From Dictyobacter arantiisoli (GTDB lineage Bacteria; Chloroflexota; Ktedonobacteria; Ktedonobacterales; Ktedonobacteraceae), in contig NZ_BIXY01000077.1 in the NCBI RefSeq assembly GCF_008326305.1, forward strand, positions 1 to 35,388: a stretch of DNA of 35,388 bases, in the 5' to 3' direction. Shown piece by piece: positions 3,060 to 27,901 of the stretch (its first letter is position 1; every line of letters starts with the position of its first letter). A program made the position numbers and the translations under genes. The notes beneath the pieces are model-generated. The model worked only from the letters and a program-made list of their open reading frames with translations. It did no database searches and was not told where the DNA came from.

Positions 3060-3240
3060 CCGCCTTCGGCGGTGGGGAGAAAAAAAGATTATGTGGGGAC
3101 ACCCCACACCCCGGCAGTGGGACTACCGTCCCCCTGCACCCCCTGCTTCTCTCTTCGGTGCCGAGCAGAAAAAAAAGATTATGTGGGGTGTGTCCCCATA
3201 TCCCGGCAGGGGGACTACCGTCCCCCTGCACCCTCTGCTT
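3060..3240 (-). repeat. Two tandem ~92-bp units, each with hairpins and a U-tract
   Basis: Two similar units fill the nirD-narK spacer. Read on the minus strand, each has a hairpin based on GGGGGAC-GGTA-GTCCC(C), perfect over 9 bp at 3207-3228. A GC-rich hairpin follows (TGGGG-ACACA-CCCCA at 3184-3198; GTGGGG-TGT-CCCCAC in the other unit), then ATAATC and a run of seven or more T. The second hairpin plus T-run resembles an intrinsic terminator. The block ends at 3060-3072 with CCGCC-TTC-GGCGG. A diverged relative may lie at 18555-18650. Confidence 0.8.
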
Positions 3241-3242
3241 CT

Positions 3243-10350: not shown

Positions 10351-10436
10351 CGCAGGAATTTTCGCACCCGGGGTGCTCAAAAAAAATTCGTATATGTTGC
10401 ATAAAGTGTTCTGCGAACACTTTATGCAACATATAC
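10351..10436 (-). repeat. Palindrome element H3 (diverged, inverted)
   Basis: A perfect inverted repeat with 22-bp arms (10390-10411 and 10415-10436) and a 3-base loop lies next to a second hairpin GCACC-CGG-GGTGC (10364-10376) flanked by TTTTC and TCAAA. Read on the minus strand this is the layout of elements H1 and H2: long palindrome, T-rich link, GAGCACC-N3-GGTGCGAAAA. The palindrome arms themselves are unrelated in sequence to those of H1 and H2. It sits 14 bp after trhO and could end its transcript. Confidence 0.7.
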
Positions 10437-14148: not shown

Positions 14149-14191
14149 CCATATTATATAAAACGTTGATTGAACGTTTTATATAATATGG
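14149..14191. terminator. Perfect 19-bp inverted repeat at the end of the P450 operon
   Basis: The arms 14149-14167 and 14173-14191 pair perfectly around a 5-base loop. It is AT-rich and sits 13 bp beyond the P450 stop on one side and downstream of the GCS2-like gene on the other, fitting a bidirectional terminator. Confidence 0.65.
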
Positions 14192-15419: not shown

Positions 15420-15489
15420 CATGAACCTCATTTCAGGAAACTTGCCCGCTACGCGGGCAGGTAGTGGAGAGAGGCCAGGGCACAGCCCT

Positions 15490-15781
15490 GGAACCCGGGT
15501 TAAGGGTTGCACCCTTAACAATCCCGCATTTCTCACGTAGTTCAATATATTCAGGTGCGAGCCTGGAACCCAGGTTAAGGGTTGCACCCTTAACAATCCC
15601 GCATTTCTCACGTAGTTCAATATACTCAGGTGCGAGCCTGGAACCCGGGTTAAGGGGTGCAACCCTTAACAATCCCGCATTTCTCACGTAGTTCAATATA
15701 TTCAGGTGCGAGCCTGGAACCCGGGTTAAGGGTTGCACCCTTAACAATCTCGCATTTCTCACGTAGTTCAATATACTTACG
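15490..15781 (-). repeat. Four tandem ~75-bp units between reductase and P450 genes
   Basis: Copies start at about 15490, 15565, 15640 and 15716 and differ at only a few bases. Each contains a palindrome GTTAAGGGT-TGC-ACCCTTAAC (9-bp stem, 8 bp in the third copy), then ATCCCGCATTTCTCACGTAG and TTCAATATA. The last copy reaches the stop codon of the reductase gene. The 75-bp unit keeps long frames open by arithmetic, which creates false coding extensions. Confidence 0.92.
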
Positions 15782-19987: not shown

Positions 19988-20232
19988 CACCCTTCACAGG
20001 TAATACCGCTTAAACAACGAGAATGACGATGGAGAAGTGTAGGTGCGTGCCGAGGTCGCAACCGAGGTGCGCTTTCCCGTTCCTCGTACGAACATCCCGC
20101 CCGTAGGCCATTCCCACTATCAGGGAACAGTGCAGAGCGTTGGGGCGAGAGAGTCCGTACGAGCAAGGGAGCATTGACCTGCGCTTACGCTCCGTGCAAT
20201 GCCTCCGTTTTTCCTCATGATTCTCGTTATTT
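19988..20232. repeat. Composite R1 element: inverted pair with matching ends
   Basis: An R1 copy on the minus strand (19988-20116) faces a variant copy, R1b, on the plus strand (20133-20232). The outer ends are inverted repeats: TAAACAACGAGAATGACG at the left and ATGATTCTCGTTATTTGG at the right. The middle holds CCCGTAGGCCATTCCC and GAGCGTTGGGGCGAG. The composite of about 245 bp fills the gap between two convergent genes and looks like a MITE. No other gene is seen in 19973-20251. Confidence 0.75.
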
Positions 20233-21235: not shown

Positions 21236-21265
21236 GATCTATCCTATCTACCTTTCTAATACTTA

Positions 21266-21475
21266 CAATGTGTCTGATTCCCATCCCCAGCGAGATCTTG
21301 CTGCTCACCTGCTGGCAGGTGTGTGCGCCTGCGTCCTTTTTAGTATGTGCTGTAGAAAAGGTTCGAAGAACCTTTTCTACAGCACATACTAAAAATCTGT
21401 TTGAGCACCATTGGTGCGAAAACTCATGCGCCAGGATGGCGAAGACTATGGGAAACAAACACTTTGTTAGAAACT
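21266..21475 (+). repeat. Palindrome element H1
   Basis: The element shows AATGTGTC at its left end, GATCTTGCTGCTC, a small hairpin CACCTGC-TG-GCAGGTG, a perfect palindrome with 28-bp arms (21337-21364 and 21368-21395, loop GAA), then TCTGTTTGAGCACC-ATT-GGTGCGAAAAC and ACACTTTGTTAGAAAC. It aligns with H2 (27636-27847) over about 200 bp. Because it lies between divergent genes it is not a simple terminator. Besides it, 21236-21783 shows no gene. Confidence 0.85.
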
Positions 21476-27612: not shown

Positions 27613-27635
27613 TCCTGGAGCGGCATTGTCTGTCA

Positions 27636-27847
27636 GAATGTGTCAGCCCTCCAATACCTGCGGGATCTTGCTGCTCCCTGACTGGCAGGTGCTTGCGCGC
27701 CTGCGCCCTTTTTATTATGTGATGTAGAAAAGGTTCTTCGAACCTTTTCTACATCACATAATAAAAATCTGTTTGAGCACCGCAGGTGCGAAAACTCATG
27801 CACAGAGATGGTGGAGAGCATGGGAATTAAACACTTTGTCAGGGGTG
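27636..27847 (+). repeat. Palindrome element H2
   Basis: This is the second full copy of the H1 element, with AATGTGTC, GGATCTTGCTGCTC, CTGGCAGGTG, a perfect palindrome with 28-bp arms (27709-27736 and 27740-27767, loop TTC), TCTGTTTGAGCACC-GCA-GGTGCGAAAAC and ACACTTTGTCAG. Two arm positions differ from H1, and both have matching changes in the other arm. The loop is the reverse complement of H1's. Confidence 0.85.
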
Positions 27848-27857
27848 GAAGAGGATC

Positions 27858-27901
27858 AAAAGATCCAGGCATGAAAGAGAACATTCATGCCTGGATCTTT
27901 T
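27858..27901 (-). terminator. Terminator hairpin after the dioxygenase gene
   Basis: The arms 27858-27875 and 27884-27901 pair perfectly over 18 bp around an 8-base loop, and the outer pairs are AAAA/TTTT. It lies 31 bp past the dioxygenase stop and can work in both directions. Confidence 0.75.

Follow-up and report, generated by a model that had tools for sequence, protein, structure and literature searches.

What keeps a long palindrome perfectly paired while its sequence changes? The question is raised by three elements, H1, H2 and H3, in the stretch of DNA analysed here (the window, 35,388 nucleotides), each of which combines a long perfect palindrome with a short dyad of the form GAGCACC-N3-GGTGCGAAAA. 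Such a combination is commonly read as strong evidence for a selected RNA structure. We consider it likely, with good confidence, that the H copies constitute a non-autonomous IS5-type MITE present at about 250 sites of the host genome, in which the interior palindrome is kept perfect by template switching.

The H unit in the window and in the host genome

A preliminary description had reported H1, H2 and H3 as elements sharing two hairpins. All three were found in place, with perfect palindromes of 28-bp (H1 and H2) or 22-bp (H3) arms around 3-nt loops, and with the GAGCACC-N3 short hairpin enclosing ATT in H1, GCA in H2 and CCG in H3. The two-hairpin layout had to be extended: the palindrome and the dyad are real, but the H1 and H2 units are longer, at 201 and 203 bp, and include terminal inverted repeats (TIRs) and a 3-bp target duplication. 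The features are as follows.

21266-21466, plus strand: H1, full copy of the MITE, 201 bp; TTA at 21263-21265 and 21467-21469 is the target duplication
21266-21283, plus strand: H1 left TIR, CAATGTGTCTGATTCCCA
21315-21332, plus strand: H1 GC-rich hairpin, GCAGGTG-TGTG-CGCCTGC
21337-21395, plus strand: H1 long perfect palindrome, 28-bp arms, loop GAA
21403-21422, plus strand: H1 short dyad, GAGCACC-ATT-GGTGCGAAAA
21449-21466, minus strand: H1 right TIR, minus-strand sequence CAAAGTGTTTGTTTCCCA
27636-27838, plus strand: H2, full copy of the MITE, 203 bp; TCA at 27633-27635 and 27839-27841 is the target duplication
27636-27653, plus strand: H2 left TIR, GAATGTGTCAGCCCTCCA
27685-27704, plus strand: H2 GC-rich hairpin, GCAGGTGC-TTGC-GCGCCTGC
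27709-27767, plus strand: H2 long perfect palindrome, 28-bp arms, loop TTC (the reverse complement of the H1 loop)
27775-27794, plus strand: H2 short dyad, GAGCACC-GCA-GGTGCGAAAA
27821-27838, minus strand: H2 right TIR, minus-strand sequence CAAAGTGTTTAATTCCCA
10359-10436, minus strand: H3, core-only relative
10390-10436, minus strand: H3 palindrome, 22-bp arms, loop GCA on the minus strand
10359-10378, minus strand: H3 dyad, GAGCACC-CCG-GGTGCGAAAA

TIRs were not seen in H3, which starts 22 bp past the stop codon of a rhodanese/UPF0176 gene. Its arms had been called unrelated to those of H1 and H2, which does not hold: anchored on the loop, GTATATGTTGCATAAAGTGTTC of H3 and GTATGTGCTGTAGAAAAGGTTC of H1 agree at 16 of 22 positions. 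Genuinely unrelated perfect palindromes adjoining the same dyad were found, but in other species.

Since arms from different species give poor alignments, the dyad pattern was preferred to a covariance model for searching the 7.2-Mb genome of the host, a bacterium of the genus Dictyobacter. With up to two mismatches, GAGCACC-N3-GGTGCGAAAA was retrieved in about 251 copies compared with one for a reversed-pattern control, and the exact pattern occurs three times inside the window against 0.13 expected, confirming that the family has many further members in the host. The unit was delimited from about 30 and later about 100 H copies, its boundaries and duplication were derived from 43, and the alignment statistics cover about 1 Mb of the host's 7.2 Mb plus targeted copies. 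The full unit of about 203 bp is composed of TIRs, a GC-rich hairpin, the long palindrome and the short dyad, with the 3-bp target duplication flanking it. Its ends are the TIRs GAGAGTGTCAGACTCCC / CAAAGTGTTTGATTCCC; TIR variants are CAAAGTGTTTGATTCCCAT or GAGAGTGTCAGACTCCC, plus mixtures of both, with a length of 17-18 bp in the 43 copies and about 80% complementarity. The 3-bp duplication was exact at the predicted edge in 27 of these copies and not exact in 16; eight other offsets gave only 0-1 of 43. The duplicated triplets were chiefly TAA, TTA, ATA, TCA and TAT, mostly of the form TNA or otherwise A/T-rich.

Copies differ in length by 1, 2 or about 10 nt, which makes a common reading frame unlikely. 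They are intergenic, 2 of 61 lying within an ORF of more than 150 aa although the crude ORF set covers 82% of the sequence. Tandem, convergent and divergent gaps hold 29, 10 and 10 copies, respectively, roughly proportional to the intergenic DNA available (55, 17 and 28%). Head-to-tail arrays also occur, with one target triplet between neighbours, one copy lying at the other's edge triplet. When joined flanks were compared with all available DNA, no clean empty site was obtained; the junction-spanning matches were neighbouring H copies or an adjacent second MITE. The suggestion that H is a mobile unit is supported by the approximately 250 dispersed copies, the TIRs, the 3-bp duplication and the IS5-family ISs of a sister species, described below, whose TIR tips match those of H.

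The long palindrome and rival readings of its pairing

In an alignment of 41 full copies, arm sequences diverge by 18.9% from copy to copy, near the value for the rest of the interior (22%), yet the 1148 arm-pair cells comprise 1139 Watson-Crick pairs, 2 G-U pairs and 7 mismatches. Both sides have changed in 17 of the 28 arm pairs, and the whole structure contains 224 double-changed cells versus 87 in shuffles. In these elements, by comparison, Watson-Crick pairing between the TIRs reaches only 79%. Loops were compared in the 118 pairs of copies whose inner arms are identical, pairs that are not independent of each other: 70 had the same loop, 43 the reverse complement, as in H1 (GAA) and H2 (TTC), and 5 another loop, and the flip recurs across several arm classes. 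In the sister species Dictyobacter aurantiacus, 37 copies with GC-rich arms gave 902 Watson-Crick, 2 G-U and 15 mismatched pairs, and their 4-nt loops include five reverse-complement couples.

The preliminary description had taken the preservation of structure through sequence change as a sign of selected structure. For the long palindrome, the near absence of G-U pairs and the inverted loops fit template switching instead. Template switching between the arms of an inverted repeat yields both arm homogenisation and spacer inversion (PMC8604942; PMC8794818), and it has been argued to be able to create and maintain RNA stems (PMC8794818). Because G-U intermediates are scarce and loop inversion is frequent, the arm and loop pattern favours DNA template switching over RNA selection, for which there is no need; selection for an RNA helix is disfavoured since G-U intermediates would be expected and loop inversion would have no reason. 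Replication would switch template at the long hairpin and copy one arm onto the other, homogenising the arms and sometimes inverting the centre of the palindrome (loop GAA to TTC), which would make the palindrome appear structurally conserved without requiring selection on RNA. Some selection may act on the long palindrome besides template switching, as some arm positions are invariant among copies.

Template-switched inverted repeats described in yeast coding sequence (PMC8604942) and in RNA genes (PMC8794818) likewise have homogenised arms, an inverted spacer and near-perfect stems with no G-U steps; H differs from them in consisting of dozens of dispersed bacterial mobile-element copies, in two species independently. 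The dozens of host copies and the 37 sister-species copies match what template switching alone predicts, namely near-neutral arm divergence, practically no G-U pairs and inverted loops. The H family is a natural experiment on the rate of palindrome re-perfection and a warning to covariation-based RNA discovery.

Alternatively, the interior might specify a structured RNA, either non-coding or acting as a 3'-end or terminator-type element, with a long hairpin selected for pairing, the MITE serving only to distribute it, a reading that appears distinctly unlikely. Both strands fold much more stably than shuffled sequences (z -8.3 and -9.2), but any palindrome folds well whatever its origin, so the z-scores do not discriminate. 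The many paired changes given above would suit an RNA, whereas the 2 G-U cells among 1148 and the inverted loops are unexpected under RNA selection. Some cores in a second genus lie exactly between convergent stop codons; the host copies, however, are not concentrated at gene 3' ends and neither hairpin has a T-run after it. The window yielded no Rfam match at gathering score, and at permissive thresholds the matches of H2 were chiefly to microRNA models, which any long hairpin will fit. An intrinsic terminator was rejected as a candidate, the long hairpin being followed by AAAAA on both strands and the short one by GAAAA or TCAAA, with no T-run. This lack of a T-run and the spread over tandem, convergent and divergent gaps about as intergenic DNA allows agree with the earlier remark that plain termination does not explain the family.

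The copy number and position of H also recall the REP/BIME elements associated with Y1 (RAYT) transposases (PMC3733652, PMC2817692), which are likewise short, extragenic, palindromic and of high copy number (more than 100 in H), and the host does carry one Y1_Tnp gene. That H is an extragenic palindrome moved in this way is nevertheless highly improbable: TIRs and a 3-bp target duplication are transposon-like and not REP-like, and the tetranucleotide tag (GTAG/CGTC) is absent at the dyad, where the conserved core is TTTGAGCACC-N3-GGTGCGAAAA. Nor is there a link to a Y1 transposase, as one species (G020) has the core and no Y1_Tnp match, and the dyad is absent from the four Y1 loci inspected, including that of the host. 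We give just as little credence to H as a multi-copy retron-like msr-msd RNA, in which the long palindrome would be reverse-transcribed and the TIRs would form the a1/a2 stem. A conserved short hairpin beside a variable long one, with inverted ends flanking both, has the appearance of such an RNA, and reverse transcriptases exist in these genomes. Against it, the end repeats are only 79% paired and have a transposon-like 3-bp target duplication outside them, most of the best reverse transcriptase matches fall within open frames of some 560-690 aa, a length typical of group II intron proteins, and no reverse transcriptase adjoins the H copies that were read.

The short dyad and the candidate mobiliser

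Copies recruited by the dyad are biased toward a perfect dyad, and its conservation was re-measured in copies recruited through the left portion of the element and without the dyad, leaving out matches to the palindrome's opposite strand. The dyad is exact in 85 of these 98 copies, with a deviation of 0.97% per site. Its loop is never inverted and its stem is invariant in the aligned set, and a stem that never varies gives no covariation evidence for RNA pairing. What had been said of the short hairpin stands in that the stem is kept while the loops vary, but the conservation is one of sequence, for which a recognition site is at least as good an account as a selected structure. The dyad, TTTGAGCACC-N3-GGTGCGAAAA, is conserved as sequence, and we infer that it is probably a recognition site for a protein or else is needed for mobility.

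Within the class, the dyad was detected in this genus and one other (g8) only, the exact pattern being present in 6 of 47 genomes; with one mismatch it is present in 8 of the 29 genomes of the family. The g8 dyads are few, have no TIRs, and most lie beside a differing perfect palindrome with arms of up to about 31 bp. Two g8 species have an identical dyad, and a palindrome with matched differences in both arms, in the gap where a metallo-beta-lactamase-fold gene and an ABC1-kinase gene converge. The same gap contains other palindromes in several family members, none in some, and an H-like element in the host (loci L256 (G000:C10), L252-L254, L258 and L262), and it is a good locus to study palindrome turnover. 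The dyad-palindrome pair is probably older than the MITE, to judge from the sequences of the second genus, which has the dyad beside palindromes without TIRs. A nearly invariant dyad, common to two genera and placed beside unrelated palindromes, is a testable lead for a putative DNA-binding protein. It is possible, though we regard it as rather doubtful, that a locus-specific perfect palindrome, a short link and the invariant GAGCACC-N3-GGTGCGARAA together form an independent cis element of one Ktedonobacteria family. The dyad would then recruit a protein that uses the palindrome or helps to generate it (for example at a bidirectional end-of-gene or chromosome-organisation site), and the element would have been captured and scattered by the IS5-type MITE in Dictyobacter.

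Potential mobilisers were sought around the transposase genes of the genus by a family-free search for any TIR with a 3-bp duplication. D. aurantiacus (genome G003) was found to have two IS5-family ISs (loci L138 and L143) with TIRs beginning GAGAGTGTCAGA / GAGTGTGTC and with TNA-type 3-bp duplications as in H. One, of 1095 bp, has the TIR GAGAGTGTCAGAGTTGCGTC and the target duplication TGA; the other, of 966 bp, has the TIR GAGTGTGTCTTAAACTG and the duplications TTA, TTA, TGA and TAA. The overlapping ORF pairs of both match NF033580 (IS5 family), PF13340 and PF01609. Unlike H, these ISs carry a transposase and a different interior, and the identity between the TIRs is confined to the first 9-12 bases or so. 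One IS copy is abutted by a hybrid composed of the first part of the H element and ending in the TIR of that IS. Because the TIR starts and the TNA-type duplications match, H is likely an IS5-type MITE and an IS5-type transposase its likely mobiliser, as far as sequence comparison can tell; an IS5-family (DUF4096 + DDE_Tnp_1) enzyme would have bound the TIRs and moved the unit. In the host assembly (256 contigs), no intact partner IS sharing the H ends was found. A position-weight TIR scan of the PF13340 and PF01609 loci gave no autonomous partner, no PF13359 loci (DDE_Tnp_4 genes) were found in the host, and its few DUF4096 matches are without matching ends. The mobiliser of the host copies may have been lost.

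Known repeat families and neighbouring repeats

Dispersed repeats with a conserved fold are also represented by bcr1 of Bacillus cereus and BOX of pneumococcus, to which H is likened by description only. H shares with bacterial MITEs (review PMC10969869; e.g. MITEAba12, PMC6382973) a size of about 200 bp, TIRs, a short target duplication, the lack of its own transposase, intergenic location, many copies and the occurrence of truncated copies. It differs from them in that its interior is no simple IS remnant, containing a GC-rich hairpin, a self-homogenising palindrome and a dyad that is also found outside the MITE. No description of the H family was found in the open literature searched, the search not being exhaustive. 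The kind of element (IS5-type MITE) is already known; the combination of a self-homogenising palindrome with a nearly invariant dyad is unusual, and the H family appears to be new.

A second palindromic MITE of about 95 bp, with ends CTCGACTTTGTACA...TGTACAAAGTCGAG and 3-bp flank duplications TAA, TTA, CAA and TAT, often abuts H copies, with the edge triplet in common. Copies are located at L032:3859-3952, L054:10960-11054, L056:7789-7883, L057:7867-7960 and L064:7502-7596.

Other repeats were recorded in the window. A dispersed repeat around GAAAGCGCACCTCGGTTGCGACCTCGGCACGCACCTACA is strongly clustered, with 8 core copies in the 35-kb window and only 9 across some 0.75 Mb of host sequence; it lies at positions 469, 14043, 23683, 25396 and 27554 on the plus strand and at 20057, 22799 and 25269 on the minus strand. 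At 15484-15777 a 143-nt-register repeat is present as three tandem copies with 75-76-bp spacing, each with the palindrome GTTAAGGGTTGCACCCTTAAC. Two 71-nt copies at 3080-3242 contain hairpins such as GTGGGGACACCCCACAC and GGGGGACTACCGTCCCCC, and a similar GTGGGGACACCCCACACCCCGGCAG stretch is also present in D. aurantiacus (L260). Perfect palindromes without the dyad, with arms of 18-22 bp, are located at 14149-14191, 1721-1766 and 27858-27901. In the host genome, long perfect palindromes with little or no T-run seem to be common, and several lie directly past stop codons.
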